In this document: piece after piece, positions 7,853 through 28,289 of the stretch
Position numbering within the stretch: position 1 is the first letter of the stretch
Layout of the letters: each line of letters opens with the position of its first letter
Assembly: GCA_026770025.1 (NCBI GenBank)
Contig: JAMXDE010000048.1
Location: forward strand, 186,001 to 250,000
Origin: Craspedostauros australis
Lineage: Eukaryota; Bacillariophyta; Bacillariophyceae; Mastogloiales; Achnanthaceae
DNA length: 64,000 nt
Direction of reading: 5' to 3'
Notes under the pieces: model-generated
The model's input: the letters and a program-made list of their open reading frames with translations, nothing else
Told to the model about the DNA's origin: nothing
The model's database searches: none
Program-made: the position numbers and the translations under genes

Positions 7853-8368
7853 CAACAGACTCCTTGTTGTCTGCACGATGTCGCAATACTGTGTCATCAT
7901 ATGACGCCATTTCTCTGAGTTGCTCAAGGAGATACCTCCATCTCAGTATCAGACCTTTGTCCATTTTTACTTTCTGTTCGTGGTGATCATGTGGGTCGAT
8001 GCGAGCCTTGGGCATAGACAAAGGTGTAGCTCGTCATGGTCTACAAGTCATCACTTTTGGGAGTGCCCTGCTGTGTATCATGATCGCAACTACAGCATTT
8101 TAATCTGCGCTGCATCAGGATGCAGGAATACCTACTGCCACTATCAAGGTGCTCTCAATCTTACAGGGCTTGCCACATTCCAGTTGCATTCGCCCAACGC
8201 TCTTGTATGCATAAATTAGTGAAGGCTGTGCGTTGCATGCTGGAATTTGCTCGTTTTGTTTTGACATGTTGTTATCAATGTCTCTGTGATGCACCTTGCC
8301 AATTCCTCAGTGTGTAGCTTTGAATGAGACCCCTTCATGTATGTGTTGTCACAAGTGTCATCTAGACA

Positions 8369-9133
8369 ATGGAATCAACAGAACGCAAAAAGAAGAAACA
8401 CTTATCTACAGACCAACAGATTCAGATCTTGGTGACGCTGTTGCTGTTGCAAGTTGACAGCCGTTGCAAGGGCAGGGTGCTCGATCATCTGGCAGCACGC
8501 TACAACGTTCATCGCACCACAATCCAGAGAATCATGATCAATGTTAGAAAGGCTGTGGCCAGCAACTTCCAATCATCTTGGAGCTTGCTGCCACAGTATC
8601 ATGCATGTCATGGTGTGCGCAAATGGGACAGAGAGGACCTGAAAGAACGTCTATGACATCTTAACCGCAATGACGCTGCAACCCTTTGTACAGCTGCTGC
8701 TGCCCTTGGCGTGCTGCCAACTATGCTACACGAAATGCGAATCGCAACAAAGCACTGCATCAAAAACATATTCGGACTCTTGGAGAAGCACAAGGCCGAT
8801 AGCCTTCGCTTCTGTATCAATCACATGGCTGATGATGGGTTGCTCCAGAGCTTGGATGATATTGTCTACTTGAATGAGAAGTGGTTCTTTGTTCACTTAA
8901 CCTCATGTGAGCGATGGTGCGTTGTGGGTGAAGACCCTCCGGCCCGATACGGAAACACAGCAACGACTACAATCCAAGAGATGGTCTTTCTTGCACCGGT
9001 GCTGAAGTTGCAGCATACAAGGACAAAGAAAATGATATCGCAATCCACAAGTGGCATGCAGGACCATGATAGGTACAGTAGACAGCAGCACAACAATGTT
9101 AGTGGAACATCTGCTTCACATGTGGCTTACTGA
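8369..9133 (+). pseudogene. Tc1/mariner-type transposase remnant, copy A
   Basis: An N-terminal helix-turn-helix region (8369-8653; HLAARYNVHRTTIQRIM) is followed in the same frame by a segment typical of mariner transposases of plants and stramenopiles. That segment includes LNEKWFF and a stretch corresponding to the usual '..E..P.R....I..VMFLA.V'. A TGA at 8654-8656 interrupts the frame. The first catalytic Asp, normally HIDEKWF, is Asn here. The frame ends near residue 254, before the second and third catalytic Asp, where family members usually run well past 300 residues. It is a dead relic. No terminal inverted repeats were found around it. Confidence 0.75.
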
Positions 9134-9562
9134 TGAATTGGATGGAGGAAAATGAAGTGTGATGAATTGCAAGAGTATGCGGACAAGTACTGGACCACAG
9201 ACACGGGCATTGGCGCAACCGCGAGTACGAATGTGTGGAGGAGCAGAGGGGAGAGCAAGGGAGCAACAACTAGCAGGCTCTGCATGACGAAGCATGAGGA
9301 GACAACGAGGATGGCACGAGCAGGAAGCAGATGCCAACATGGATACCATCAACAATTATAGTATGGTGCAGAGTGATGCATTGTCTTTCAGTTGAGTCTG
9401 TCAAAGGTAGGAGTGCACGATGAGCAGCACGCTGTGTGTATTGACACGTCTATGTATTGTAGTCTACTTCGTCATATGAACACGCATAGGAGAATAGTGG
9501 AGAACCCGATTCACTATTGAAGATAGACTGACTGTGTGGGATGAGTTGGATGCTCTATATGA

Positions 9563-10216
9563 ATGATATCACATCGAATCTGCAGTATCATACCAATGTA
9601 CTCAGTATATGGCATGCACATCAGAGCTCGAAGAGAGTTCAGAGCTCGCGCACGTGTCACCCTACGTCATCATGTCCAAGAACGTGACAACCTATCAGGC
9701 TTGTTGGGAACGTCATTCCGAGGGGCTCTTTCTAAAATTGCCGCGGCTCCCACGACGCTGAACAGCAGGCAAACGAACTGCGAGGTGGGCAAGGTGCAAC
9801 AAGCTCGTGCGAACGGAGGAGTTGAGCACAGCTCCTGTTGCCACACTCGGCTGCTCTGCTATGATTCCATTGCATCCACGACCAACTGGGAGGGCCGCAA
9901 GATCCGCATCATTCATGTTCCCAATTGCCGACTCGTACTTGCATTCGCAGACATAAAAGGCTCGCGCAGCTGCAGCTGCTCCAGATCCTCCATCTGTCGG
10001 GGCTGGGCAAAAGGAGGTTCGTGTGAGTGGGTGTGCGCGCCAACGGCAATGACATCTCTCTCACGGGGGTATAATAGCTCGCCAGAGATCTTGTGTGGCG
10101 AAGCTCCTGCCGTCCGAGTGGCTTCGCAGGACAATACCTTGCAATGCCCCACCAAGGACCAATGCAGGAGCTTGCAGATCATGGGAAAGTTTGTACGTGC
10201 GTACGCGTACGAGTAG
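9563..10216 (+). CDS. Unidentified 217-codon ORF of the duplicated unit, copy A
   Basis: ATG-started frame with exactly the same length in both copies of the unit (the other is 27636-28289), differing by about a dozen residues. It is Cys- and Arg-rich with no recognised domain. The opposite strand is also largely open in copy B, so the strand is uncertain. Equal length across a diverged duplication is mild support only; it may be chance conservation of recently copied DNA. Confidence 0.2.
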   Translation: MISHRICSIIPMYSVYGMHIRARREFRARARVTLRHHVQERDNLSGLLGTSFRGALSKIAAAPTTLNSRQTNCEVGKVQQARANGGVEHSSCCHTRLLCYDSIASTTNWEGRKIRIIHVPNCRLVLAFADIKGSRSCSCSRSSICRGWAKGGSCEWVCAPTAMTSLSRGYNSSPEILCGEAPAVRVASQDNTLQCPTKDQCRSLQIMGKFVRAYAYE

Positions 10217-11021
10217 AGCATGACGCAACCAGGGGCGAAGTGCGTCCGACTGCATAGAGCATACGACTAGTATAGTAGATCGCAAGAATGCGAGTATTCG
10301 CAAGACTCTTTGTCGCTCAGTCATCTTTATCATCGCAAAAAGTAGGTCGCCATTGCTGGCATCGTCACCGGTGCTCATCCAGTTGTTGGTGTTATTCGTG
10401 TTAGGGAAGTTGCCGCATTGGATCACTTTACGGATAAAGTGCTCCACTTTACCGAGGAGAGACAGAGAGAGCGGAAAGGATGTGACTCCGCGTGACGAAC
10501 GCCGCATCGATTGTTTGTGTCAATGGATGTAAATGGTTGGAAGGAACCGGCCTCTTTGGAATGATTGATCAGCCGAGGTGCCAGTCATTGTATCAATCAG
10601 TCAATGAAGGAATGGATCGATCGATCCAGCGTGTGACAACCGTTCGCTTCGTTGCAGGACGTCATCGCAGTTTACTGTGCGTGTGCAGCTATGTATGGCA
10701 TTTATCATCTTTACTGTAGGTCATATGGTACAAGGGTCATGTCTATGTCTTTCTCTCTCTCTATTTCCAAGTGCCCCTGTTGTCGTGCTGTCGTTGCTGC
10801 TGTAGATATGTAAGAATGGTATGACATGCTACCATGTGCGCCGTTGCGGATTATCTTGGTGCTCTCACCTGTGGCCCCCAACTGCTGCATCCGTGGTGGC
10901 AAGCACGTGTTTGGGTATGATACAGTGGACGTTGGCAGGCGTTGTGTCGCGCTGAGAGCCATGTCAGGGATAGCTCTGCTCTGCCTTGTCCGTAGTTGTC
11001 TCTCTCTCTCTCTCTTCGCTC

Positions 11022-11735
11022 TTAGAAGAGGTCAAAGGTAGGTATGCTGTCGTACACCTGCTCTCTAGTGATGTCCATGATAGAGATGGGAGAGACAGGG
11101 TCTTCCTTGAGGAATGGGAGCAGCAGCCCCAACCGACGCAGAGGAAGGACGGCGCCGCTGCGTCAGAACTTCGAAAGACAGGCCGGCAGGTTGGTGTTGC
11201 TGCTGCCAGCTGGGGTGTCCGGGAGGTCTGGGATGACGAACTTGCTTGCGAGAGGGCGGACGATCACATTCTCCAACTGCTGTCTCCACGAGGGGAAGCT
11301 GCTGATGCTCTGTTGGCTGCAGCTCACATCGTCAGCCCCAGTGTGGTGGACCTTGACTCTCTTCCAGCTCCTCTTGCGTGGTGGTGGTGGAGGCGAGAGC
11401 ATGGAGCGCTTCGTTGTCATCTTGGTTGTGCTCTGGCTTTGCTCGTTGATGTGCGCATTTCTCTGTGTGTTTGTGCATGTGTCGTGTGCTGGGAGGTTCA
11501 TTTGTCTTGTGGACAGTGGCATCGTTGGTTCGCCGACTGTCGATGTGCTGGTGTTCGTTGACTCCTCTGTTCTTGTGAGTGCAGACAGGATTGCTGCTGT
11601 TGCTTTCTAGTTTGAGATCGCTCTGTCCTGCGGTTGATTTCTGATGTCCATGTCGCTCTTCTTTGGTTGGATTGCTTGGCTCATCATTGTCATTGTTGCG
11701 ACGCTTGGTCTTGTTGATGTTGGTGTTGGTGTCAT
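11022..11735 (-). pseudogene. Unit ORF2, copy A, interrupted (IPDLxDxP protein)
   Basis: Counterpart of the intact 236-codon frame at 29090-29800. Here the frame carries TAG at 11607-11609 (GAG in copy B) and TGA at 11163-11165 (CGA in copy B, a CpG transition). Length differences between the copies are multiples of three. The protein has a Pro-Lys-Arg segment (PPPPPRKRSWKR) and the motif VIPDLPDTPA. Function is unknown. Confidence 0.4.
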
Positions 11736-11975
11736 GATGATAACTTTTGTCGTGTTTGGCTCTTTGGTACTTTGGTGCTTTGGCATGCTGACTTTCGGTT
11801 TTATGATGTCATACCTGTTGGGTTTCGGTTTGTGATCGCGTTCTGTGCTCAGGTACAACCACTACCATCTCCTACCAGTACGTATACACAGCGTTTCATT
11901 GTTGCCACCACTAACACAAGCCGTCTCGACAAATTGGCGTTGGGTTTTTCGTCATCTCTCGTTCTGCCCGGAAAG

Positions 11976-11979
11976 CGTG
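11976..11979. repeat. Target-site duplication (CGTG), left
   Basis: CGTG at 11976-11979 is repeated at 17982-17985 and occurs once at the empty site 30037-30040 in copy B. Shared bases leave the cut ambiguous: 2 bp (GT, ends GGGAAG) and 4 bp (CGTG, ends GGAAG) both give symmetrical termini, and up to 5 bp (CGTGG) are duplicated. Confidence 0.85.
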
Positions 11980-12009
11980 GGAAGCGCGGTAAATACGTTA
12001 TAGGCGTCG
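11980..12009 (+). repeat. Transposon terminal inverted repeat, left
   Basis: Begins GGAAGCGCGGTAAATACG. It matches the inverted right end (17952-17981) at 23 of 30 positions; the 14 outermost bases differ at one site. Confidence 0.85.
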
Positions 12010-12170
12010 TTTTCCTATGGGACTCCATCAGTAGTCCAAGTAGTCCGTGTCGGACACGTCGATTGTCTAGAAGGTACTACCATAGTCATCCCATCAGCAT
12101 TGTTTGATCACGGCTAATCCATGTATTCGCTAAATGTGTTATTGTTGTTTGTGTGTGTTTTGGGGGTCAT

Positions 12171-14087
12171 CTAATCGGTCTGTGTGCTTTCGTCATCGTC
12201 TTCATCGAAGTTCTCCTCTTCTTCGGATTCCTCCTCGCTGTCGCTATCGCCATCGGCGATCAGGTCAATCAATTCTGGAGCACGTCTGCGGCGCTTAGTT
12301 TTTGCGATTCGCGGGTTGCGGGCGCTGGAGGGAACAGCTGAGGGAACAGGTGCAGGAATCTGGAGAGAAGTCAGGATGGAAGGAACAGGACGTTCTGGAG
12401 TGCGACGAGCGCGTCCGCGAGAAACAGAACGGCGCGAAGCACGAGCAGACGTCTTCGTCATGTTCACAGCCACATGAGTGGCTTTTTTACGAGTGAGCTG
12501 TGCGGTGGAAAAGAAACCAGATGCGTGAGTCAAAATGATCGAGTCATGAACAACAAACGATCTTGTTTTCGCACGGACTTACTTACCTTTGGAGATCCTC
12601 CGAAACGGGTTCCTTGGCAAGCACGAGCAGGTGGTGCACGAGCAGTTGGCGCACGAGCAGTAGAGGGGACCATCGACAACTCGTCCTCATCAAATGAGGA
12701 GAAGCCATCGTCGCTATTCGCGACTCCTACGTTATGATTAATTGTTTGGTTGCGTCCGTAGCGTGCCAAGTTCTTTGCTGTGTGTGTCACAGGATTTGTG
12801 CTGTACACAGGCACCAAGCAAACAATGAGCAGGGGCGCATCAGTGCGCACATCACTTTCGCGGTCATTGATGTTCAGTGTGGGGTTGAGAAAGTCAATGC
12901 CATGCATGGCATTGTCGGGGGTCATCTCGAATCTGTCACTCACTTGAATGGGGAGGAGCTCCTTGTGTACGCGAACAGCATGTGAGCATCCGCGGCACAT
13001 GTTGCGGACAGCAAGCGCATAGGACTCGCTCCGCTCGCGGTGCCCGCGGAAAGAACGGACATGAGCAAGGGAGGGACGCAACTCATTCAGCAGGTCAACC
13101 AGCTCGTTGTCAATTGCCCTGGATGACCTGAGTTCTTGATTCTGCCGGATTCTGACCTCCAGCACTCACCCACGCTCCTTGATTGCCACGTCAACGTCAC
13201 CAGAGCATGTCCCTCCTGGGAGTTCGAAAGTGATTTCGAACACCTCCCCAAGCCCTTCAGGACAGTACGCATGACGCACTGCAGGCAAGAAAATCTCGCT
13301 GTTGCTCTTCATCCAAGCTGAAATCGCGTGCCCATGACTGGGACCCTCTTGCAAGGGTGTCCCAGTTTCAGTGTTCTGCACGATCGTGTCACCTCCAACA
13401 GCGCCAGGAAGAGCAGCAGCAGGAGAGGTCACGGATGGCAAAGGCACATGAACAGACGAGGGATCCACTGTGCCGTACGCAGGTCTGGCGGTCGGTGGCG
13501 GATGGGTTGGGGCCGGGGACGAGACGTGCGCTGTAATTGGTGGGGCGGACGAACGGGCAGCTGCCACCATGGGGACTTGGTTGGTGGGTTCGGGTTGGTA
13601 CGCAAGACGAGAGAAGGCGTTCATGGTCACCTTTGCTTCTTCGGGCTTCTGCTTTGCGACTTGAGCGATTGTTTCATCAAATTGATGTTTGAATTCGGCA
13701 GCGTTCGCAACGAGATCGGAAACGTTCGGAGAGTATTTTGTGTCCATGCGCACTGAGAAGGGTGAGTGACTGTTGATGATACTGCAAGATTCACACCATG
13801 ACATTTCCCGACATGATCGCGCCTAGTCACGTACCGGCTTCAGCGGCCTTTCTCGCTTGATTTCTCTCCACAGATTGGTGGAGCTTGTGGAGGTTGCGAG
13901 CAAAGTTGCGCCGAGACAAGAAGTGGAGATCAGCGTTCTCTTCCCAAACGACTCGTGGGGGCGTCGTCATTGGAATCGCGCCACTCTCAATTTTCGCCCG
14001 CAGGTCCTTGATCTGAGAATACAAAGTCTTGTTCCACTCCGCCCCATCGTTGCTGTGCTGCTTGGATACAGAAGCCTTCCTTGGCAT
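12171..14087 (-). CDS. Transposon partner protein: Trp-rich helical N-terminus plus beta core, spliced, with an in-frame stop
   Basis: Exons: 14087-13835, 13752 to ~12587, and 12497-12171. Introns 13753-13834 (GTACGT..CAG) and 12498-12586 (GTAAGT..CAG) keep the frame, giving ~580 codons. Residues 18-75 (W18, W48-E49, H55, N61-F62) share a pattern with the protein at 21612-23882 and could be a SANT/trihelix-like DNA-binding domain. A Pro-rich linker leads to a core with YCPEG and VAIKERG, then an Arg-rich segment and an acidic tail. A TGA at 13166-13168 falls where the homologue has Trp after Gly (GW), so TGG-to-TGA is the simplest reading; a 42- or 51-bp intron from GTGAGT is the alternative. 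The start is the ATG at 14087. Probable role: DNA-binding helper of the transposase. Confidence 0.7.
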
Positions 14088-14748
14088 GATTAACTGTACT
14101 TACTCGCGGAAGATGGAATGGCGGTTGGCAGAGTGCTGGGGATGTTGCATCGATGACTTTTATGAAGCGATGATTGTCGAAGGGCTTCCTTTTGCCTTCG
14201 TCTCCAGCATGTGATGACCAACCAGTTTCTGACATGCAGCATCCGTGGTTGGGAGGATTGAGGGAGTGATCAATCACCGTGTTGCAGCGTAATAGTACAC
14301 GGCATGACGTGTAGTGCTACTCTCCTCCACTAGCGTTCAACGCATGGTAGACGCCTGGCTAGTCCCTCATCTTAGGTCGTATACTCTATTTATAATATAA
14401 TGAATGTACATTGAATAAATATGTATATGTTTATTACGAGTATATATCTACAAAGGTTGGTGTATAATTGAAGTACACTAGACTCAACGCTCGACGTACG
14501 CTAAACACGGTTCCTGTGAGTCGACGATTGAGGATACACATGGTTCTTCGGCCTGCGTCACACACGCCTCCAACAATGCACGTGCACTCTGACGTGACGT
14601 GATGGCTCTTCACCATGTGCGCCGTTTCGTCAGGGAATCGTTGAGGCAATTCTGTCAGGGCTCGCGTGCGACTCACCATGTGCCTCTATGTGGAGTGCGT
14701 TAGGATAGACACCAACATGACATGGGTGTGCGACACGCATGAGACAGG

Positions 14749-14814
14749 ACAGGCATCGACAAGCAAACGAGGGGCGATCGACCAGCAAACGAGACACGAT
14801 CGACCAGCAAACGA
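14749..14814. repeat. Array 1: three 22-bp repeats
   Basis: Tandem units share the core CGATCGACCAGCAAACGA (the first unit is degenerate), with variable 4-base leaders (gggg, gaca). The array lies ~0.7 kb upstream of the partner gene, between the two divergent transposon genes. Possibly binding sites. Confidence 0.85.
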
Positions 14815-15148
14815 CACTTAATCAGTACTAATTTGCACAAATTTACAGCAGATCTGTCACTGTGACATGTGGCGATAGTTCACCATGCTACAATATCTAA
14901 TATAGTCGTCTTTTTATTGGCAGTATGGTGCATAATGTGCAAGTAGATAGGACGAATGGAACATACTCTCTATATTGTTCAGCAGAAGTGCTTGATGTTG
15001 ATTGACGACAGCATTCCGAAGCACAATCGACATGAGAGTTTTGCATCGCAGCGTTCGCAAGCTTGTCACCTACGCAATTGTGACACGCTTCCATAAGGAA
15101 AAATGTCGTATGAGACGTGTCGAAAGTTCTGAAATAGGCGAAAATCAA

Positions 15149-15213
15149 TGCACAATCGACCAGCAAACGAGGGGCGATCGACCAGCAAACGAGACACGAT
15201 CGACCAGCAATCG
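15149..15213. repeat. Array 2: three 22-bp repeats
   Basis: Same units, order and leaders as the array at 14749-14814, in the same orientation. The last unit has one changed base (CAATCGA for CAAACGA). Confidence 0.85.
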
Positions 15214-15904
15214 ACATGACATGAGCGCGACGTGAAAGCGATATGAGCACGACTTTTGCAAGACATAGACACGCCATGTGTTGGATTCCAATGCAAGCCT
15301 GCCGTCCGTATTTGCATATTCATGATTGTAGGTCCATCATTGTTCATACTGCGCACAAGTCCTAGCCGGAGTCCTCAGTGTGGGTGACAACATCGCGCTC
15401 GCAGGAATTTGCCATCACAAAGGATGACCGGCGACTCCAAACATGTTCGCTCTGCTCTCCTCAGTGCTCTTGTCTTACAGTACAGGGACGAACGAAACAG
15501 CGCACACGTCATTCCAAGTGACCACCCACACGGAGTCGCGGATACACACCAGGATGATGATGTTGTATTCGGCCATGAAGAAAAGAATACGGCCTCGTCG
15601 TCCGTTGGATGCTGGTTTCTTTAGCACCCTTGCGCAATCGAGTGGCATCGCGGGGACAACAGTTCGCGTTTGTCGCTGGGCGTATCGTGTGATCAGCTCC
15701 CCAAAGGCGAAAGGCGACAACAACTGTTCTACCACAAGACAAGCAGAGTTCTACGAGGGGAAACACTGTTTCGTCGTTGCCAAGTTGCAGTTCTTTCATG
15801 CACAATGCTGACGATGATGGGAGTTGCTTGCTGACATTTGTGTTTTCGCTTCATTTTGACATTTCTAGACACACGAAGAGCTCACAATTCGCAACAGCAC
15901 CAAA

Positions 15905-16917
15905 ATGTTGCTCCCTCACGGAACGTTCGCAACTGTTGGTTTTGGGCTGATTGGCTCTCGCCCAAGAGGCATGCTCACCAATGACCTTTCGAGGGAGTCA
16001 TTGCGACAGTTTGTGTCTGTGTTTGGGACACATCCGGACATCGTACACATCTTGTGGAACGAGCTCGCAGACGCTCGAGCTCTGCCACGCGCGGCCAAAC
16101 CCAAACACCTCCTTTGGACGTGCGCGTTTCTTCGCATGTACGTGTCTGAAACTGCGTTAGCCGCTGTGTGCAAGTGTTCTGCAAAAACTCTTCGCAAATG
16201 GATGTGGCTCATGATGGCAGCCGTTGAAACCGTTAAAGATCGAATCGTAAGTACTAAATAAATCCCATACCCAAACTGCGACACAAAATTATGTTCACTT
16301 CATTCACTCACACACGGTTCTTTTTGTCGTGGTACCGCTTGCATTGACAGATTGTTTGGAACCGTCGTTTCGTTGGCGCAAGTCACAACGCAAAAGCTCT
16401 TGTGACGGTTGACGGAACTGACATGCGAATCATGGAACCGAAACCGTTTGACAAGAAGTGGTACTCGTTCAAATTTCGCGCTGCTGGTGTGCGTTACGAG
16501 TTGGCTGTTGCGATTTCCACTGGTGAGATCATTTGGGCGAATGGGCCTTTCCCGTGTGGCCTGCTGAACGATCTCTCGATCTTCCGTCTGGGACTGAAGC
16601 CAAGATTGGCGCAACACGAAGTCGTAGTAGCAGATTCCGGATACCGTGGAGACCCTTGCGTATTTCCCCCAACTTTTCATGCAGATGGGATCATGCGTTG
16701 CCGCCACGAAACGGTCAACAGGCGAATCAAGCACTGGTAATGCATGCACTTGAAGTGGCGGCACCATGTTGACAAGCATCGCCTGGCATTCAACGCGGTG
16801 GTCATCCTCACCCAAATTGAACTGAGCAACGGCTTCCCCTCGTTTGACGTTGTTGTCGCCATGCAAGAAGCACGTGAACGTGCCATCGCCCAAGCAGAAG
16901 CACAGCACACACACTAA
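15905..16917 (+). CDS. PIF/Harbinger-type DDE transposase, one intron, in-frame stop near the C-terminus
   Basis: Exon 1 (15905-16246) and exon 2 (from 16351) are joined across a 104-bp intron (GTAAGT..GACAG, phase 0). Exon 1 encodes a helical region ending in KTLRKWMWLM. Exon 2 has the DDE_Tnp_4-type catalytic pattern: VTVDGTD, then VVADSGYRGD, then RHETVNRRIKHW. The segment EPKPFDKKWYSFKF and NGPFPCG are also characteristic. A TAA at 16738-16740 interrupts the frame, and coding-like sequence (KWRHHVDKHRLAFNAVVI) continues to TAA at 16915-16917. The frame is open upstream to an acceptor-like site at 15868, so a 5' exon is possible. The enzyme would cut and join the element ends; the stop falls just after the last catalytic residue. 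Confidence 0.82.
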
Positions 16918-17951
16918 ATAGCCTGTCCCACTTAGTAGTAACAAATAGTCAAAATTGAACATGCAAACAATGTTAATCCTGGATTCTCTCCCTTGTCTGC
17001 TCTAGTGAGTTCGTGTCTGGTGTCCTTGTTTGAAAAGGCAAGCTCAGCATTACACTGACTGGAGCATCATGCGAGTGCCATGTTTTACTGCAGGGAACAC
17101 TATTTGTCAACAATACATCTCGGACCCACTGGTAAGCCGTGTGGAGAATGGGGAAGGAGCTACGTCCACGTGGAGGTGAGACATCCTTCTTTGGATAGAA
17201 AGAGGATTGACTAGGCAACCAGACACTGTTGATTGCGCAAGACAATCCCAGTGTGTCCTAAATGAAACGAACGAAAACACCAGGGAAGCATCTGGAGTGT
17301 GCAACAACACGCACGTTGAGCGGAGGGGCAGGTAGGTGTTCACTGCTGAGGCTGACAATGAGAGCCATGTGAGGCAGGGGTTATCACCCCAGAACGCGTG
17401 CCCATCAGTACCAGGAAAGGGAGGACATGACGCTGCCTACCCCCCTGCGAACGAACATGCTCACTATTGTCACAGGTGTGCTGTGGAGAGCGACATGATG
17501 AAGAACCGAAGTACACCGGGAAAGAGGATGATCAGATAACGTGTGTTTGTTGGAGTGCTGCACAGCAATGAATTGTGGCGCGAAAAGGAACCACCCCCAC
17601 GCGTTCGAGAGTCGCCCCGTGCGAAGAAACGCGAACAACCAATGCGAATCCAGCACTCTTTTGAAAAGCAAGGGCAATTGAGCCGAAGGGCTGTCACGGT
17701 GGAAAGGAGGCAATGTGACGTCGCGGGTTTGGGAATGGCGCTGTCTTGGAGCAGACACGAAAGGGTGGAAGGAGAGCAAAGCGGACATCATTGGCACGTT
17801 CACATGGTGTTGGACATCGCCAGGGCACGCACGTTAATAAGCGCAACGTCACGCCGACACGGGAAAGGCGTGCTCTAGTAGTCGCATGAGTCGATGATCC
17901 GAACGAACAAAGCACGGCAGAACACGCTTCAAGCGTGAATAAAGTACAAAT
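16918..17951. other. Right arm of the transposon, no gene
   Basis: Between the transposase and the right inverted repeat. Only short frames on either strand; no coding sequence can be supported. Confidence 0.5.
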
Positions 17952-17981
17952 CGACACATGTAGTGTCTTTACCGCACTTCC
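17952..17981 (-). repeat. Transposon terminal inverted repeat, right
   Basis: Read inward from 17981 it starts GGAAGTGCGGTAAAGACA and pairs with the left end at 11980-12009. Confidence 0.85.
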
Positions 17982-17985
17982 CGTG
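17982..17985. repeat. Target-site duplication (CGTG), right
   Basis: Second copy of the CGTG found at 11976-11979. From here sequence continues as in copy B from 30041. Confidence 0.85.
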
Positions 17986-20076
17986 GTGACACGTACCATC
18001 GTTCGCCGACCAAGGAGTACCTCTGAGCGTCTTTGCCGTACTACTACTGGTTCGTGCTCGCTCCTGTCTTTTGCCTCCCACGCTTCTCTCCTTCGATCGC
18101 ATTCTTCTCGCTGGTTCCACTGGCCAAGTCATTGTGGTGTGTATAGTACCATACACGTACGTGTTGCGTCGCCAGTGAAATTCTACGCATTGGCCCAGTA
18201 CTGACTCTGTGCTAAATCGTGCCTTGCACTCACGCAAGTACACACGAACCCGCTGTTTCTTGTCCTCGTCTTTCACGAAGGATGCATTCGTCACCCAACG
18301 CATTCTTCCGCGCTTATGGGTGGTGTCAAATCGTCATTGCGAAAGCAGATTGGCACGTTCGAGCGCAGCGCCTGAAGTCGTTCGCTTGACCATCGAGCGT
18401 GCACCAGCGACTCTTTGGAAGCGCAGATGCCAAATTTTGTGATCCGCACCCAATGCTGCGACTTACTTAGGCGGACGTTATCCGGACTGGCCTATTGTAT
18501 GCTCGATGCGACGTCGCCAAATACAGTTACTTACAGAAACAATGTGTCGCAGGCATTCCCAGAAAAGGCAGCGTGACGACAAGGAGAAGCTGCACCATCG
18601 TTGTTCTTTCACTGACAGCAACCATCTGGCAGGGCTTTATCGCACTGTTGGATTGGTTTTTCATTGGTTCTCAATTCCTCAACGGAAGCTCGGTTGGTCC
18701 ACTGAAAAAAGCAAACAGCTGTTCAGGGCGCACATAGCATTCACCAACAAATTGGGATGACGTTCAGACGCGAACCGTTGTCAAGTTCATAGCGAAGCAG
18801 CACGAACATCCAAACTCCGCGCCACAGTCCGCAAATGACGGAGATTCCAGACGCTTCATTCCACTTTGTCCGTGGTGTGATGAGCCACGGCACAAAGCGA
18901 GAATGTCAATGGCTGAATTTCAATCTCGAAGAAGAAGAACAACAACAACAACAAACAACTACAACACCCGCCAACAACAACGACAACACCAACGACGATG
19001 ACGTCCATGACAGTGTCCACAAAAATTGTGCACGGTTCGACTTGCATTTCACAGATCAATGTTCTCTTCGACGTGGATACCGCGCGATACCTGGTATGTA
19101 CGTGCTCGTACGGTACACTCAAGTACTTAGCAGAAGCTGGAACTATGCGTGTGGATGAGATGAACTGCGGCCCAAGCCGGGTTTTGCGACCTCACGTCAT
19201 CATACTGCGACAACGGAAGAGACTGCGGCCCTGATGATGACGCGGCAGGCGCACTGATGCCGTCACGTTTGTGGCGATGATGCGAAGATGCAAGGATCAC
19301 ACAAGAGTTGATGCACCGTGGTCATGGGCAACGAACAAGTATCCTGGATACGGTTGTTTTGCTTCATAGTCCTGTCTCCTGCCGACCAGCTCCTCGACCT
19401 CTGCCACCACTATCGGCAATTGTATCTGTGGTCGTATCATTACGCAAAGAGACTATGGACCATACTGCGAGGGCACAGCACACTCGTATCGAATGCATTG
19501 GCATGGTGCGACCCTGCAGATCGCAGAAAGTGCCGCCTGGCCCCAGGAAGCGGAGGAAGAGTACTTGTGCTGCGACTGCTTTGTAGGAATCACGAGAAGT
19601 CACACTTTCCAACAAAGCGAAATGAAAGACTGATCTTAACATACGATCTAATTGATGAGAGCAGACCAGCACCGCAGACTATCTCTGCGGCAACGCGTCA
19701 AGCTTCGAGTGGTTGTTGGTCATCAGTCATTGGTTATGTGAGTTGGGTCAAAGAGAGCGCTCTGGAGCACCAGCATACGATGTATCCAAGCACCCACTCC
19801 ATCATGTAATAGCTCGCAGCTATGACTATGGTAGTAGTCGTATGCTTCCGCGCTCACTCCCAATGTTTCTTCTCTGCTCGTATTATATGATGGGCAGGCG
19901 GGAGGAAAGTTCGCTCCTCGTTTGCTATGTATCATGGAATGAACTCCAGTCAGTGTGATATTCTATGATGCAGCGATCAAGTAATGCCAGTACTACGTAC
20001 AGTAGGTACATCTCTCATGAATAGTATTGCATGCTATACTCAGGTAATACCATTGACGCGGAGTGGCGTGGAGGTG
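17986..20076. other. Middle of duplicated unit, copy A
   Basis: Aligned to ~30041-32124 in copy B. It holds a (GAA/CAA)n tract near 18928-18965 that differs in length from copy B, and several short frames on both strands, including a basic minus-strand segment near 18300-18000 that is frame-shifted in copy B. Apart from the ORF at 19318 I see no gene to support. Confidence 0.4.
19318..19809 (+). CDS. Unidentified ORF of the duplicated unit, copy A (out of frame with copy B at its end)
   Basis: Counterpart of 31378-31785. The two share about 110 residues (for example LSPADQLLDLCHHYRQLYL) with one in-frame 6-bp indel, then diverge because a single base differs near 19670. No domain is recognised. 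The late loss of frame suggests a non-functional remnant or a wrongly read frame. Confidence 0.2.
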   Translation: MVMGNEQVSWIRLFCFIVLSPADQLLDLCHHYRQLYLWSYHYAKRLWTILRGHSTLVSNALAWCDPADRRKCRLAPGSGGRVLVLRLLCRNHEKSHFPTKRNERLILTYDLIDESRPAPQTISAATRQASSGCWSSVIGYVSWVKESALEHQHTMYPSTHSIM

Positions 20077-21210
20077 TCAAGGCAGGTCGGGCCTTGGCCT
20101 CGCGGACTCATGCGAAGGAGGCGGAGACTCGCGACCGTCGATGCTGTTGCTGTCGTTGTCGCTGACTTGTTCGCAAGAGGGAGAAACGAAGCGCGCCGGC
20201 AGCGAAGTGGAGACTCCACTGTGCTGGGGGTTGACCCGCATCAGCGAGCGTCTGTGTGTCGTTATTTGGTACCGTGTCAGTCCTCCTGGCCCGCATTGAT
20301 GCGTCACCATGCCAGTCCTCCCGAGGTTGTTGCCGTTGTTGCTGCTTCTGCTACTGCCGCAGTGTTGGGACATCAGCGGCCGAAGCACCTCCACTCGATG
20401 TTGCTGTTGCTGCTGGCGTTCATGATGACCATGATAGTTTCGGTGCTTGTTACAGCCGTCATGTTGAGGGGGGCAGACCACGCGAGTTCTGAGAGAGTTG
20501 AATGGCCCCATTGCCGTTGAAGGCGGCGCCTGCATCGGGGCTTGTATCGGAACCGGCTTCGGCAATGACACTGGCAACGATTCGGGTGAATGCCTATGTC
20601 CGTTGACACGGTGCGGCACTGCCCTTCGCGCTGTGAGCGTAGCATGGTGTCCAGCCGCCATCAAGGGCTTTGATGGGATTACCTTGAACTGAGATGCGCG
20701 GACTCCAACCAGAACAGACACACAGCCAAGAGCCTGACCGTCGGATCTTGGCTTCAGCGTGAATGACGGCGCGTTGTTGCCTTCAATCTTCTGGTTTTCC
20801 TTGCCGGTGACGCCCCACATCTCATCACCATGGCCGGCTGAGGGGACATCCGTGAGATCCGGGATGATGAGCGATGTCGGTGGCGATCTGCGAATGAGGT
20901 CGTCTTTGCGGAAGTGGTGGCATCCGATCCTGGTGCTTGCAGATGAAGGTGAAAGAAACCTCCTTCGCTTGCATGGTGGTGAAGGCATCACCGGTTTTGA
21001 CGATCCTTGTCGGGGTCGGTCGATGCCCATGCCCAAGCCGTGCGTCGTCATGGTGATGGTGTCCACCATTTCTGAGCGCCGTCGTTGTTGGCGTTTCTGT
21101 CTTGGAGGAGATGCTTCCATGGCTGCGAAGTGTTGCAGGTTGTTGCTGATTGCGAAGTGCGGCGTTGCGTTGCGGTGATGCGGTGATGTCTCAGGCGCTC
21201 GCTTGCTCAT
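20077..21210 (-). CDS. Unit ORF1, copy A: basic, Ser/His/Gln-rich IPDLxDxP protein
   Basis: Open for 377 codons from an ATG at 21210; a second ATG at 21120 is shared with copy B. The protein is basic and probably disordered. Near residue 80 it has CKRRRFLSPSSAS, followed by SLIIPDLTDVPSAG, the motif also present in ORF2 of the same unit. A Gln run lies near residue 270. The frame is open in both copies, but most differences between copies change the amino acid, suggesting weak or no constraint. No known family is recognised. Confidence 0.4.
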   Translation of the reverse strand: MSKRAPETSPHHRNATPHFAISNNLQHFAAMEASPPRQKRQQRRRSEMVDTITMTTHGLGMGIDRPRQGSSKPVMPSPPCKRRRFLSPSSASTRIGCHHFRKDDLIRRSPPTSLIIPDLTDVPSAGHGDEMWGVTGKENQKIEGNNAPSFTLKPRSDGQALGCVSVLVGVRASQFKVIPSKPLMAAGHHATLTARRAVPHRVNGHRHSPESLPVSLPKPVPIQAPMQAPPSTAMGPFNSLRTRVVCPPQHDGCNKHRNYHGHHERQQQQQHRVEVLRPLMSQHCGSSRSSNNGNNLGRTGMVTHQCGPGGLTRYQITTHRRSLMRVNPQHSGVSTSLPARFVSPSCEQVSDNDSNSIDGRESPPPSHESARPRPDLP

Positions 21211-21611
21211 CGTCTCTGTGCGTCTCGTGTGGAGGATCGAAGAGTTTATGTCCTTTGTGGGAAGCTTGGTCTTTCTCTGCGAATTGTGTGCGAATTGTGA
21301 GGCAAGTGGATGTCTTGGGAGAAACTCGACGCAAATCAGCGTTTTGCGTTCCTCCGCAGTGCAAAGGATGTATGGACCACGGGGAGTTGCCGGAAAAGGA
21401 GAAAAGTTTACTTTTTATGTCGGAATTGGCAAGACTAGGTACTTGATTAGACATAAATATGTGATTTGCACCCATCATGGTACTTTGTTTGTTCCTACTA
21501 CTGTTTAGTACTTAGTTAGTTCTCTCCTTTGTGTTTCTGTTTCTGTCGTTTTCGTTGTTTTTTGGTGTTTGTTTTGGTTTTGTTCGTACTGTTGTTGTTA
21601 TTCTGTGTGAT

Positions 21612-23882
21612 CTACTCTGGGGAGTAGTGCTCTCTGTCTGTGATTTCTGCCTGCTTTGCTGGTTCTCGTGTGATGTTCCTGTTGTTGACGCATTCACGCT
21701 GATGCGGTGTTTTTGTTGTTGTTGTTGACGCATCCAGGCTGATGCGGTGTGCTGCGTTGCGCTGCACGTAGGCGTTCACAGTGTGCCCTGTTGCATCGGC
21801 AGACACAACACTGCCATTCACTCCATCAGGCATTCCTGCTGCAGCTCCGCCTGATACCTCACCCACTTTCAGGCGGAGCACATCATCATGACGTGGGGCA
21901 TCCTCACCGTTGCGGGGGCGCACAGAGCCCGTCAGAGCTGTTATCTCCATCTCGACAGTGGGGATGGAGCTCCCAGTACTGCTGGATTGAGAGGAGCTCC
22001 AGACTGGGTCGGGAACGCCACCACCAGGCAACCCACTGGAGCTGTGGGCAGCCAGGGATGCGTTGGTGTGAGCTTGACGGAGCTGCACCTCAAGCTCAGC
22101 CAACCAGGCCTGCGCATGCTGCTCACGAGCATGAGCTTCGTTGCGCATGGCCTCGAACTGGGCCCGAGCTTCATGCTCAATTCGGGCCTTGGCCTGAGCA
22201 TCCAGCTGGGAGTGCTCTTTTGCCGCATGCAAGAGAGCCTCGCATTCGGCCCGTTCCTTGCGAGCTAGCTCTTGCGCTCGAGCAACTTGAGCCACGGCCT
22301 CATGCTCCATCTGCTGGCGGATCGCAGCAGTCTGCGCAGCATTCTGATTGGTTGCAGGAGGGCTGGCAAACCCGGCACCAGCATTGGGAATTGGAGATCC
22401 GAATGAAGCAGGATGATGGTTGCCACTGGCGCCACCTGGCTGGGCTGGGGAAGGATGGCCAAAGGGGTGGGAGCTGAATCCTTGCGCGGTCGGGATGGCG
22501 GGCGCAGGCATGGTGGGATTGAAGGAGTACACCATCCCATCCAAGCCTTGGACGCCACGACGACCAGCCGTCCCGAACTGCTGCTGATTGAAGCTCTCTT
22601 GGAAAAAGCAGAAAGTCACCAGCGTGGTGGTTCCGAGGTAGTTCTCCACGATCTCGAAGTTGGGTTCCTCGAGGTCCTTGGTCTTGACGTTGCGGAAGAG
22701 GCTGTCAATCTTCCTTGGGAGGCTGAACTGGCAGCTGACAACAAGCACGCCTGCATCGTCGGTGACCTTCCGAGCGAGATCCTGGAAATATTTTTAGCCT
22801 CCGCAAGGCTTGTAGAAAACCCTTTGTCATACCTGTAGACTCCGTAGATGCACTCTGCTGTGAAGTACATCTTTGGTACTTTGTATGTCAGCTTCAATGT
22901 CCACCCTTCATCCTCCGTAGACAGCGCCACAGAATCCGGATCCACCTTTGCGTCCAGGACCACAAACATGTGAATCCCCTCACAGTAGCGCCCAGTTCCG
23001 TTTGCAGCTGTCAAAGGATCGAAAGCACGTTCAGTGAATGATCCGAGCTTGACCATGTCCAGTGCAGGGCTCATGGCGCGATCTGCACTCCGGATTCCCA
23101 TCTTGCCCATGGCATCCACAATGGTCTTGTCGTTGGGTGTGGCATCGCGCTTGGGGGCAGGAGGAGGTGTTGGTTTGCTCACGTCTCGGACAGGGGGTCC
23201 ACGAGGGCCTTGAACTCCACGACGAGGCATAATGAATGGTGGGGTAGCTTGAGAGAGATCGTCGTCAACGAATCCTGGGTCGAGCTCCAAGCTGTCTGAA
23301 GATACAGCAGAACCGAGACGATCAGAATGAACAGAAGGAAGGTAACTTTCGTCGTCGTCCGAAGAAGAACCGCGAGCAAGATCAGCAGCAGGAGGGTGAT
23401 TGGCATCGGTGTTGTTAACAGCGCCTTGTGCTGGTCGGTAGTTGAAGTTGATCTCGCGTTCTTGACGCAACTCTGCGAGGCGTTCTGTGGAATCCAGACC
23501 GCACCTCTTGCGAAAATCAGATCCAAATCCTGTGCACAGCGAAGCAAATCAGAGCTGTGTGAGAAGAGATTTGGTTCACGAACATGTCAGGACAGTCGGC
23601 GATCACAATAATAGTCACACCATGCAACATCACAAAACGGACGCACCTTTTTCCACTCTCGAGGAACTTCAGCAGACGGGCCCAACAATTGAGAAAATTC
23701 TTCTTCGTGTTCTTCTGGCTGTACAGACTGTGCCACTCGACGTGCGACTCCCAGAAGTTCGAGAAGCCTTCCTTGGTTGGTTGGAAGCGAGGAGGATTGG
23801 AGATGAAACCTTTGATGATGTATGCAGCGTGATCTCCTGCGGGTGACCACCTTTGAGCTCGAGCAACTTGGATTTGTGCCAT
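21612..23882 (-). CDS. Homologue of the transposon partner protein, with coiled coil; one frame break
   Basis: Starts at the ATG 23880-23882. Residues 1-75 repeat the partner pattern (W12, W44-E45, H51, N62-F63). An intron of ~127 bp then probably follows (donor near 23656, acceptor CACAG ending 23530), leading to FRKRCGLDSTER. Next come an acidic Ser/Asp region, a Pro-rich part, a beta core with YCEG, VALSTEDEGW and FSLPRK, and an Ala/Glu/Gln coiled coil of ~80 residues. The frame changes once in an A5 run on the minus strand at 22791-22795, within the core, so the copy is either a recent pseudogene or carries a one-base assembly error. It ends at 21612. No transposase lies beside it. Confidence 0.65.
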
Positions 23883-24298
23883 CTTGGAGGTAAGCTGAAT
23901 TGTGGGCTTGTGACGGACACCCCTGCTACAGCAGATACTGCGAGTGCAACGCTGCAAACAACTCGACCAATGCTGGGAGATGGTATCATCGATCGATCAA
24001 CCAGCTGTCTATTCAAATCAAGCACGCAGGTAGGAGCAATGCAGCCAGACTACGGCAAGCATTCAGGCTGTCACATCCGCCATTGCCTGTTTCAATCACC
24101 AGTATTACACAGATGAGGAGGGTCGTGGTGCGTATATGAGGGCATGAGGTCCCATCATCCTGTTTTGTTCGGAATGCAACTTCCTCGTGGGTCGAATTTG
24201 CTCTTTGTGGGAGCTCAGTTGGATTTGGTGAGCATACTCAGGTTCATGTGCTTTGGACGGCTCACTTGGAATGATGTCTTCAAATCTGGATATTGTCC

Positions 24299-24572
24299 CT
24301 CCGACAAGAAATTCTTAGGAACCGACGGTATTCGTTTTTGGGGGGACAAGTACCTGGTTTTCGCCGACAAGTCTCATGTGTGCTTTCCTACGCAACAGCC
24401 AGTAGTAGCTCACGTAGAAATCAAAAGATAGAATTTGTGGTTCGCCATTTCTACTCCGACAATTCTAAAGTTCTAGTCCGACGGTTACTAAACCGTTAAT
24501 TTTCTTGCCTATTTAGTATCTGTCGGATGGAAATCGTGTACTTGTCGGATGCGAATTGCGTACTTGTCGGAC
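24299..24572. repeat. Inverted cluster of CCGACAA / TTGTCGG motifs
   Basis: CCGACAAG occurs at 24301 and 24364, CCGACAAT at 24456 and CCGACGG near 24478. Beyond a small palindrome (CGGTTACTAAACCG, 24482-24495) the orientation flips: TGTCGGATG near 24521, CTTGTCGGATG at 24541 and CTTGTCGGACG at 24563. It lies 0.4-0.7 kb upstream of the gene starting at 23882. Such mirrored clusters resemble subterminal repeats of transposons. Confidence 0.7.
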
Positions 24573-25931
24573 GCCTTTTTGGCTCCTCGATTTGAAATGG
24601 TGTGGAGTGGAGTACTCAACGCTACTTGTCATTGGCTTGTGTCGAAGTTGGTCCCACCGAACAGCATGTTGACCCCGTCGCAGGACAGCTCATCGCAGAG
24701 GTGCGCTTTGGCCGATCGGCCTGTTCTTCGATTTGCGTTGCCACATGCAACGGAAGCAGACACACGAACCAGGGGTGGTGCTTCACAACGACGATTCAAG
24801 CCAAGCACCAACATCTCTTGCTCCTCTCTCCTGTGTCGAATTCAGACGAAGAAGAACACCATCCAACCCTCCCGGAGGCGGCCCCTCGGCGGAGGACACC
24901 ATCAACTGGGGCACCCCGGTCACCACAGAACCATGCTCTTCGGTTTTCGCATCGCCATCATCGCACGGCCAACATCAATAAAAACCACGAACACAACGCG
25001 ATGCTCTGTGTCCAACGATTCAAATGCAGAGGGGTGCGAATCGTTCCATGCCAGTGGCTGCATCTACTGGTGCAAGCCAGCAACCATGGGCACAAGAAGG
25101 CAAATGAATCAGACAGCCCCATCATCGGACACAGATTCTCCCAAGTCAGTTGGCCGATCCTTCATGATTTGGAGAGGCAGGGACAGCCATCACTTCAGCT
25201 CCAACTTCTTCCTTCGATCAAACACCCAACCAATGTTGAATGGCGCCTACGACCTGTCAGGAATCGAGGGTACGACTCTGTCGAAAAGATACCCATGATT
25301 GCCGCAACTCCCAACATTATTTGTCACACCTTTGGATATTATTCGTCACACCATTGAATATTGTCCATTCCACCCACGACACGAATCACACGGGAATGAC
25401 CTCAGTCTTACCAAGCAAACAAGCCTGTCCTCAATGAATCAAGAAAAGGCCACGACATCTAAATCATGTGAAGGAAGATGATGACCGACACATTGATGAT
25501 CACCCCATCTGGAGATCATGGCACGTGTCAGCCACGGACTAGAACAACTCAGAAAGGGCATCAACCATGACATCAATCATGACACCAATCGTAAAGTTTG
25601 GTGTCAGGAGATCAAGAGAGAAGCGCAAGACTGTGGAATCGTACCGCAGGGAATGTAGAATAAGGATATGCACGACGAGGTGCATGGAAAGAATGCCTAC
25701 AGATATGCACGACGATATGCATGACAAAGGATGCCTGCGGATGTGATCTCATGTATGCAAGCGATGATTCATGATGATGAGATGCATGAATGCAACAGTA
25801 TAACACGATGCTGCTGCAGGAGATGCTATATGAGAAACGAAAGGCAAAGGAGCTGAAGAGAATGAGCTCACAGTTCTGAATAGTACGATCTAACAACCAA
25901 TTAGTTCTCACTAACACTAACCCCGGATTTC
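24573..25931. other. Spacer between unit copies; possible ORF remnant
   Basis: From ~24600 to 25360 two plus-strand frames stay open for ~250 codons each and a third partly, which is typical of biased composition. A Pro/Ser-rich stretch (NPPGGGPSAEDTINWGTPV) in the third frame looks the most protein-like. I cannot decide on a gene. 25360-25931 shows only short repeats. Confidence 0.35.
25663..25740. repeat. Two imperfect ~38-bp tandem repeats
   Basis: Units begin ATATGCACGACGA and end ATGCCT(A/G)C, with a few mismatches between them. Confidence 0.6.
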
Positions 25932-26441
25932 CAACAGACTCCTTGTTGTCTGCACGATGTTGCAATACTGTGTCATCATATGCCGTCATTTCTCTGAGTT
26001 GCTCAATGAGATACCTCTATCTCAGTATCAGACCTTTGTCCATTTTTACTTTCTGTTCGTGGTGATCATGTGGGTCGATGCGAGCCTCGGGCATAGACAA
26101 CGGTGTAGCTTGTCATGGCTTACAAGTCATCATTTTTGGGAGTGCCCTGCTGCGCATCATGATCACAATTACAGCATTTTAATCTGCGCTGCATCAGAAT
26201 GCACGAATACCTACTGCCACTATCAAGGTGCTCTCAATCTTACAGGGTGTGCCACATTCTGGTTGCGTTCACCCAACACCCTTGTATGCATTAATTAGTG
26301 AAGGCTGTGCGTTGCGCGCTGGAATTTGCTCGTTTTGTTTTGACATGTTGTTGTTAACGTCTCTGTGATGCACCTTGCCAATTCCTCAGTGTGTAGCTTT
26401 GAATGAGAGTCCTCCATGTATGTGTTGTCACAATCTAGACA

Positions 26442-27206
26442 ATGGAATCAACGGAACGCAAAAAGAAGAAACACTTATCTACAGACCAACAGATTCAGAT
26501 CTTGGTGACACTCTTGCTATTGCAAGTTGACAGCTGTGGCAAGGGCGGGGTGCTCGATCATCTGGCAGCACGCTACAACGTTCATCGCACCACGGTCCAG
26601 AGAATCATGATCAATGTGAGAAAGGCTGTGGCCAGCAACTTCCAATCATCTTGGAGCTTGCTGCCACAGTATCATGCATGTCATGGTGTGCGCAAATGGG
26701 ACAGAGAGGACCTGGAAGAACGTCAATGACACCTTAACGACACTGACGCTGCAACCCTTTGTACAGCTGCTGCTGCCCTTGGTGTGCTGCCAACTACGCT
26801 ACACGAAATGCGAATCGCAACAAAGCACTGCATCAAAAACATATTCGGACTCTTGGAGAAGCACAAGGCCGATCGCCTTCGCTTCTGTATCAATCACATG
26901 GCTGATGATGGGTTGCTCCAGAGCTTGGATGATATTGTCCACTTGAATGAGAAGTGGTTCTTTGTTCACTTAACCTCATGTGAGCGATGGTGCGTTGTGG
27001 GTGAAGACCCTCCGGCCCGATACGGAAACACAGCAACGACTACAATCCAAGAGATGGTCTTTCTTGCACCGGTGCTGAAGTTGCAGCATACAAGGACAAA
27101 GAAAATGATATCGCAATCCACAAGTGGCATGCAGGACCATGATAGGTACAGTAGACAGCAGCACAACAATGTCAGTGGAACATCTGCTTCACATGTGGCT
27201 TACTGA
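26442..27206 (+). pseudogene. Tc1/mariner-type transposase remnant, copy B
   Basis: Nearly identical to the relic at 8369-9133. It has the same in-frame TGA (26727-26729), the same Asn in place of the first catalytic Asp (HLNEKWFF) and the same early end. Sharing these defects means the transposase was dead before the unit was duplicated. Confidence 0.75.
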
Positions 27207-27635
27207 TGAATTGGATGGAGGAAAATGAAGCGTGATGAATTGCAAGAGTATGCGGACAAGTATTGGACCACAGACACGGGCATTGGCGCAGCCACGAGTA
27301 CGAATGTGTGGAGGAGCAGAGGGGAGAGCAAGGGAGCAACAACTAGCAGGCTCTGCATGATGGAGCATGAGGAGACAACGAGGATGGCACGAGCAGGAAG
27401 CAGATGCCAACATGGATACCATCAAAAATTATAGTATGGTGCAGAGTGATGCATTGTCTTTCAGTTGAGTCTGTCAAAGGTAGGAGTGCACGATGAGCAG
27501 CACGCTGTGTGTATTGACACGTCTATGTATTGTAGTCTACTTCGTCATATGAACACGCATAGGAGAATAGTGGAGAACCCGATTCACTATTGAAGATAGA
27601 CTGACTGTGTGGGATGAGTTGGATGCTCTATATGA

Positions 27636-28289
27636 ATGATATCACATCGAATCTGCAGTATCATACCAATGTACTCAGTATATGGCATGCACATCAGAGC
27701 TCGAAGAGAGTTCAGAGCTCGCGCACGTGTCACCCTACGTCATCATGTCCAAGAACGTGACAACCTATCAGGCTTGTTGGGAACGTCATTCCGAGGGGCT
27801 CTTTCTAAAATTGCCGCGGCTCCCACGACACTGAACAGCAGGCAAACGAACTGCGAGGTGGGCAAGGTGCAACAAGCTCGTGCGAACGGAGGACTTGAGC
27901 GCAGTCCGAGCCACCACACTCGGCTGCTCTGCTATGATTCCATTGCATCCACGACCAACTGGGAGGGCCGCAAGATCCGCATCATTCATGTTCCCAATTA
28001 CCAACTCATACTTGCATTCGCAGACATAAAAGGCTCGCGCAGTTGCAGCTGCTCCAGATCCTCCATCTGTCGGGGCTGGGCGAAAGGAGGTTCGTGTGAG
28101 TGGGTGTGCGCGCCAACGGCAATGACGTCTCTCTCGCAGGGGTATAATAGCTCGCCAGAGATCTCGTGTGGCGAAGCTCCTGCCGTCCGAGCGGTTCCAC
28201 AGGATAACACCTTGCAATGCCCAACCAAGAACCAATGCAGGAGCTTGCAGATCATGGGAAAGTTTGTACGTACGTACGCGTACGAGTAG
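27636..28289 (+). CDS. Unidentified 217-codon ORF of the duplicated unit, copy B
   Basis: Same length and frame as 9563-10216. A minus-strand frame of 200 codons overlaps it (27786-28388), so the coding strand, if either, is uncertain. Confidence 0.2.
   Translation: MISHRICSIIPMYSVYGMHIRARREFRARARVTLRHHVQERDNLSGLLGTSFRGALSKIAAAPTTLNSRQTNCEVGKVQQARANGGLERSPSHHTRLLCYDSIASTTNWEGRKIRIIHVPNYQLILAFADIKGSRSCSCSRSSICRGWAKGGSCEWVCAPTAMTSLSQGYNSSPEISCGEAPAVRAVPQDNTLQCPTKNQCRSLQIMGKFVRTYAYE

Follow-up and report, generated by a model that had tools for sequence, protein, structure and literature searches.

Two decayed Harbinger-like DNA transposons of Craspedostauros australis and their partner genes with a predicted alpha-crystallin/CS-like core

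The window, that is, the whole 64,000-nucleotide stretch of Craspedostauros australis DNA analysed here, contains two loci at which a partner gene lies on the minus strand within a DNA transposon. The features of the two loci are as follows.

11976-11979: left target site duplication of element 1, 4-bp CGTG
11980-17981: element 1, a full-length, decayed two-gene DNA transposon of 6002 bp with the ends GGAAGCGCGG...CCGCACTTCC; the same family boundaries are found in many copies, and there is an empty site
17982-17985: right target site duplication of element 1, CGTG
30037-30041: empty site of element 1, within a diverged segmental duplicate (25932-33415)
12171-14087, minus strand: partner gene 1, with inferred exons 14087-13835, 13752-12587 and 12497-12171; the putative introns are GT-AG and keep the frame
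13848-14042, minus strand: predicted N-terminal three-helix domain of partner 1 (alignment and AlphaFold2 model of the relative L005)
12800-13321, minus strand: predicted alpha-crystallin/CS-like core of partner 1, with a two-helix insert (alignment and model of a relative)
13166-13168, minus strand: in-frame TGA of partner 1; R in near-identical copies
12174-12280, minus strand: C-terminal tail of partner 1, with a SUMO-interacting-motif-like LIDL and an acidic stretch
14755-14814: array of a 22-bp tandem repeat between the divergent genes of element 1
15151-15214: a further array built from this 22-bp unit
15869-16258, plus strand: open stretch that precedes the catalytic part, without a Pfam match, probably the N-terminal part of the element-1 transposase
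16348-16737, plus strand: catalytic part of the element-1 transposase (VDGTD ... ADSGYRGD ... HETVN)
21382-25312: element 2, internally deleted to about 3.9 kb from the about 6.04 kb of a full copy, with the partner gene retained and the transposase lost
21612-23882, minus strand: partner gene 2, decayed by a 1-nt insertion near 23652 and a 1-nt deletion near 22790
22599-22993, minus strand: predicted alpha-crystallin/CS-like core of partner 2 (model of the full copy L014)

Both partner genes are coding-like, as the initial annotation had proposed, and its placement of the first one in a transposon together with a DDE transposase was confirmed by the element boundaries, the empty site and a match of the window piece to Pfam DDE_Tnp_4 (PF13359, E 1.1e-5, 25.5 bits against a cut-off of 24.8). 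The catalytic frame is 130 aa long in the window, compared with 171-231 aa (mostly 189-192) in other copies of at least 90% identity. DDE_Tnp_4 matches were found at 150 or more places in the genome, every one above the cut-off, and the cut-and-paste families of both loci are abundant there. In these families one gene encodes the DDE transposase and the other the partner protein; most of the families have the two genes on opposite strands.

The gene at 21612-23882 had been regarded as a lone gene. The nearest listed transposase, that of element 1, is 6.1 kb away and none lies within 6 kb, as would suit a domesticated host gene rather than a transposon remnant. However, the gene lies between terminal repeats, which the deleted copy retains on both sides while its flanks show no match, and it shares 93-96% identity with copies dispersed elsewhere in the genome. 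One of these, a copy of about 6.04 kb on contig C1, was read through the part missing from the window and carries a DDE transposase. The reading frame of the window gene is also broken. A host gene is thus largely refuted by the frameshift and by the sister copies of full length, and we consider it extremely improbable. The association with a transposase was also checked for homologues, and transposases adjoin nearly all other close copies of partner gene 2. For these counts, the transposase list comprised at least 200 places merged from several transposase searches, and 70 of the 74 partner matches were entered; the four omitted were one at E 0.39 and three rows that overlapped or were split. 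Among the group-2 N-terminal rows 24 were weaker, of which one search supplied 23 and another 1. The figure of 152 of 182 is the sum of the four neighbourhood-comparison lists, and many genes enter this sum through both the group-1 N-terminal list and the group-1 core list. From these sequence comparisons, the partner and the transposase are a pair. Likewise, terminal repeats, target duplications, the empty site and near-identical dispersed copies show that the elements are mobile. Purifying selection is also seen in the sequence, the 30 pairs compared having been drawn from selected copies and not the full set.

Short terminal inverted repeats, a short target duplication and an empty site were found, as in the IS5/Harbinger-like (PHIS) type. 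The duplication was CNNG in the window copy of element 1 and in all ten other copies read, and CNG in all seven full copies of element 2 (CAG/CTG in five, CGG/CCG in two); the 3-bp TWA duplication of canonical PIF/Harbinger was seen in none of these. The duplication may instead be 1 bp in element 2, the reading that was first considered, or 2 bp in family 1, as the constant C and G are the same as the end bases of the elements. Since C-N-G flanks all seven full copies, and given the parallel CNNG of family 1, a 3-bp duplication is the simpler account for element 2. The NuwaI group of PHIS resembles our families in its two genes and in ends beginning with GG(G). Its CWG duplication fits five of the seven copies of element 2 and may compare with their CNG, but it differs from the 4-bp CNNG of element 1; the group has been reported from animals only, with a Myb/SANT partner (Han et al. 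2015, PMC4482050). The Pangu group has a second open reading frame without a known motif and has also been reported in a heterokont and in algae (PMC4482050), but its ANT duplication occurs in none of the 17 copies read, nor in element 1.

The proposal that the partners, in two diverged types, join an N-terminal helical domain to a beta core and end in a tail that is acidic or a coiled coil was supported. The predicted layout is a three-helix N-terminal domain, which probably binds DNA, followed by an alpha-crystallin/CS-like sandwich with a two-helix insert and by a basic/acidic tail or coiled coil. The three helices were modelled with ten-residue pLDDT means of 93-98 across model residues 31-80. 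A SANT/trihelix domain as such, which had been suggested, found no support at the profile level: the weak Pfam hits listed for 14 group-1 and 6 group-2 N-terminal domains include no Myb/SANT family. Phage_int_SAM_5 was matched weakly (E 0.024) in two of the six group-2 N-termini and serves as a lead only.

The core is probably an alpha-crystallin/CS sandwich, as judged from the predicted models, which have a sandwich of alpha-crystallin topology. Confidence in the models is middling (mean pLDDT 63.9 and 71.9), and model 1 (L005:1492-2802) was made from a single open frame in which the intron is read through, so that it holds residues outside the spliced protein. All 50 structural matches listed for each model were small heat-shock protein (sHSP) or CS domains. 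The structural re-alignment (VIA) covers only Foldseek's own top 1000, and its best Z of 8.8 is a modest excess, because the typical best Z without a clear match is 7-8 according to VIA's note. Foldseek against the PDB gave no match at E<=0.001 for either model, and the first four rows for model 2 were GntR-type or putative regulators. Pfam HSP20 (PF00011) was not matched by 15 group-1 cores (up to E 10) or by eight group-1 and five group-2 proteins (up to E 1), and CS families were likewise absent among the hits of the full partners of both groups and of the group-1 cores. Besides the transposase families DDE_Tnp_4 and DDE_Tnp_1, Pfam gave scattered weak hits (best E 0.016) for the window pieces, full partners, N-terminal domains and cores. 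In a PDB sequence search the cores and group-1 N-termini had no match below E 0.2, scanning IMG/VR twice with core profiles brought up no relative, and a BFVD fold search gave no convincing match, listing a viral CS at E 0.41 and a viral sHSP at E 0.46. Against the host HSP20 profile, the HH probability was 0.3% for the group-2 core and 17% for the group-1 core, the latter aligned exactly over the lPG-DV motif. It is distinctly unlikely that the core is a generic beta sandwich of unrelated function, assigned to this fold by an accident of modelling; the agreement of all 50 entries for each of two models and the register over the lPG-DV motif argue against it. The partner core shares the predicted topology, and in group 1 the lPG-DV-type motif, with sHSP and CS domains, but differs from them in the lack of a Pfam HSP20 match, the fusion to a helical domain, the carriage by a transposon and the two-helix insert, whose approximate place is presumably the beta5-beta7 loop of sHSPs. 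As the sandwich is predicted to be of the alpha-crystallin/CS kind, its fold is probably a described one, although the core had been offered as a candidate for something undescribed; in the literature, we found no description of this domain paired with a helical domain for Harbinger-like transposons. This prediction comes close to an outcome named beforehand as refuting the proposal, namely that the core would match a well-known unrelated domain.

Several letters that appeared common to the two partners turned out to be private to the window copies. In alignments read by eye, the shared N-terminal signature did not hold: WE was present in 4 of 14 group-1 and 2 of 5 group-2 rows, H at the proposed spacing in 5/14 and 1/5, and NF in 7/14 and 1/5. 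Another H, two residues after WE, is present in 5 of 5 group-2 rows. In the core, VA occurs in 2 of 15 group-1 and 2 of 10 group-2 rows, the W of GWVL in copy 1 is the TGA codon (GRVL in near-identical copies, and W in none of the 15 group-1 core rows), and where copy 2 has YCEG, the full copy on contig C1 reads YREG. When the profiles of the two groups were compared, the N-terminal domains gave no significant match (HH probability 6.2% and 3%) and the cores a weak one (26%, or 2.9% when a smaller alignment was used). The private letters and these profile results would suit unrelated partners recruited independently by related transposases, with the likeness of the window copies due to chance and a common beta-sheet arrangement. 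Nevertheless, the parts stand in the same order in both groups, the strand order is equal with the two-helix insert at the same place, the best structural matches are of the same kind, the gene arrangement is alike in most copies, and the transposases are related. The core-to-core match at 26%, short of proof, lies in the expected register (P 0.0007). We consider independent recruitment unlikely. Both beta cores probably share a single fold that carries a common helix insert; this part of the common-core proposal stands in substance. Upstream of eight other transposase subfamilies, examined in one stretch each, a recognisable group-2 partner was found in one (L067) and none in seven (L068-L074), which counts against the explanation given next.

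Taken as a whole, the two loci are best explained as decayed members of sister two-gene cut-and-paste DNA transposon families of the IS5/Harbinger-like type, whose partner would combine the three-helix domain with the alpha-crystallin/CS-like sandwich, and we regard this explanation as likely. The PIF/Harbinger ORF1 (Myb-like; Ping/Pong, Harbinger3_DR) is likewise encoded next to a DDE_Tnp_4-type transposase, has a three-helix domain and is probably needed for mobility, as the partner would be here; our families differ in that no Myb/SANT profile was detected, a predicted alpha-crystallin/CS-like core is added, and the target duplication is not TWA. By analogy with Harbinger ORF1 (PMC2836001), the helical domain may guide the transposase to the ends of the element and help it enter the nucleus. 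The core could serve as a dimerisation and transposase-holding module, as suggested by the alpha-crystallin domain (ACD) proteins IDM2 and IDM3. According to two reports (PMC5758694, PMC5462541), these Arabidopsis proteins probably act as bridges or chaperones within a complex to which the Harbinger-derived HDP1 and HDP2 belong, one of which binds DNA; there the partners are separate host proteins, whereas here a single transposon-coded protein would unite both parts. A tentative joint reading, which we hold with more doubt than confidence, is that a Harbinger-like lineage carries its own small-heat-shock-type module fused to a DNA-binding partner, which would oligomerise at the element ends and chaperone the transposase. 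It would parallel, independently, the way ACD and Harbinger-derived proteins work together in the Arabidopsis IDM complex, and in this reading the partner and transposase lineages differ in target spacing, CNG or CNNG.

The need of Harbinger-type transposons for a second protein is known in outline only, as DNA binding and nuclear entry. If the partner does contain an alpha-crystallin-like domain, it would supply a concrete module for holding or oligomerisation, and transposons would be linked to the association of ACD and Harbinger-derived proteins in plant chromatin. What sets the spacing of the cuts could be studied by comparing the sister families, as their target duplications are 3 bp in one and 4 bp in the other. 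Because the families are abundant and some copies are identical across the 4 kb compared, the system could be active even now and open to testing.

Two genes of one partner family, each encoding an N-terminal helical domain, a beta core and a tail, are real in the window, as the initial annotation had proposed, and their structures were read on the minus strand.

12171-14087, minus strand: partner gene 1 (group 1), three exons (14087-13835, 13752-12587, 12497-12171), GT-AG introns, frame kept, splice sites inferred from sequence
12174-12280: stretch of the window copy with the group-1 tail pattern
21612-23882, minus strand: partner gene 2 (group 2), two exons, broken frame

Partner gene 1 is interrupted by a TGA at 13166-13168, a codon that reads R in near-identical copies. 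Partner gene 2 has a 1-nt deletion near 22790, which breaks the frame, and a 1-nt insertion near 23652; its exon 2 is uninterrupted for 593 codons in the full copy on contig C1. The signatures by which the family had been proposed were partly wrong in their letters, because some letters are private mutations of the decayed window copies: the W of 'GWVL' in copy 1 corresponds to that TGA stop, and the full C1 copy has YR in place of the 'YC' of copy 2. The family itself is real and mobile, and its window copies are dead.

Partner gene 1 is a transposon gene within element 1. DNA searches of the genome placed the ends of the element 1 family at window 11980 and 17981, and CGTG flanks element 1 on either side. 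An empty target of this element lies near 30037 in the window, inside a duplicated segment, 25932-33415, with about 94-95% identity. The 4-bp CNNG was duplicated in all ten further family copies with both ends fetched. The transposase piece of element 1 gives a Pfam hit to DDE_Tnp_4 (E 1.1e-5). Between the element's divergent genes a single 22-bp unit forms two arrays (14755-14814 and 15151-15214), possible candidates for protein-binding sites.

The gene at 21612-23882, described at first as a lone gene, is a transposon gene within element 2 (21382-25312), an internally deleted copy that has lost the transposase region. Seven dispersed copies of this family have the termini GGGAGTTG...CAACTCCC, equally spaced at about 6.04 kb. 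In a comparison of 4,004 bp, six of the seven, including the reference, were identical and one had 4 differences. The C1 copy carries a divergent DDE transposase (one copy was read through the upstream part). The target duplication differs between the sister families, being CNNG (10/10) for element 1 and CNG (7/7 full, dispersed copies) for element 2. In the window, the outer 60 bp of element 2 differ on one side and its flanks are mismatched. The segmental duplication (7853-21378 and 25932-33415, about 94-95% identical) surrounds element 2, and the homology of the left duplicate stops at 21378, adjoining the element end at 21382.

The count of homologues beside a DDE transposase was positive for most partner matches in all four lists. 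Among the 200 transposase places listed, a transposase was found within 6 kb of 40/45 group-1 N-terminal matches, 56/70 group-1 cores, 39/43 group-2 cores and 17/24 of the weaker group-2 N-termini, where about 3% would be expected by arithmetic. When 150 transposases were ranked by how closely they resemble the element 1 transposase, a group-1 partner was near 57 (ranks 2-74) and a group-2 partner near 42 (ranks 66-149); the two ranges overlap through a single group-1 row at rank 74, which is a partial match. Both groups were near the rank 1 transposase, in the window, and neither was near 50, among the matches listed. No such partner was detected upstream in seven of eight other transposase subfamilies (one stretch each), and locus L067 has one. 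Partner and transposase travel together. The transposase usually lies upstream on the opposite strand from the partner. Eight of the 43 group-2 cores had it on the same strand, as if one gene were inverted in that subfamily, at the following places in the source genome.

C16:1326366
C6:461337
C39:132292
C2:2464874
C4:2863867
C7:2033070
C32:101523
C15:82238

The partners are constrained proteins, with dN/dS of 0.07-0.24 in 27 of 30 pairs of chosen copies; two others were near-identical (0.34 and 0) and one had saturated dS. The beta core, first called unknown, is predicted to adopt an alpha-crystallin/CS-like fold. Group-1 tails carry [VIL][VIL], a polar residue and [VIL], and then eight residues of which five or more are acidic or serine (e.g., VIDLLSDDS), which we take to resemble a SUMO-interacting motif. 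This pattern, noticed before it was counted, was present in 7/7 group-1 loci with tails examined (L040-L046, three of them from one subfamily) and occurred 17 times in 470,194 six-frame residues of 104 loci, eight of them in L040-L046 and the window copy. A long asparagine-codon microsatellite directly precedes the L043 partner start (minus strand); its counterparts in L044 and L046 are much shorter. Group-2 N-termini (L022:1501-1737 and relatives) weakly matched Phage_int_SAM_5 (E 0.024, 2/6 members) and, in 1/6, an integrase repeat, unlike group 1. By eye, an ankyrin-repeat-like open frame (L050:2198-3100) adjoins a group-2 copy.

For IS5/Harbinger-like (PHIS) transposons, Han et al. give TWA, AT, none, ANT, CWG or (C)TNA(G) as target duplications, and Myb/SANT, YqaJ or unrecognised second proteins (PMC4482050). 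Later reports add TA duplications with TET/JBP (PMC12730594) and Ectocarpus elements of the ANT and TNA kinds whose two genes are arranged tail to tail (PMC12477816). Within these descriptions, NuwaI is the group closest to element 2 by target duplication; the CNNG of element 1 is absent from them. No Harbinger or other transposon partner with an HSP20, alpha-crystallin or CS domain or a SUMO-interacting motif was found in the literature searched, mostly open-access papers.

In Ping/Pong and Harbinger3_DR both proteins are required, and Harbinger3_DR ORF1 binds the element ends and the transposase (PMC2836001, PMC9179366). The diatom pair probably divides the work likewise, as its two-gene layout, co-inheritance and selection support; what it adds to the Harbinger scheme is the predicted alpha-crystallin-like core. 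Arabidopsis has a complex in which two ACD proteins, IDM2 and IDM3, act together with HDP1 and HDP2, both derived from Harbinger; IDM2 and IDM3 have been suggested to bridge or chaperone the components of that complex (PMC5758694, PMC5462541). By analogy, the core may dimerise the partner and may hold the transposase.
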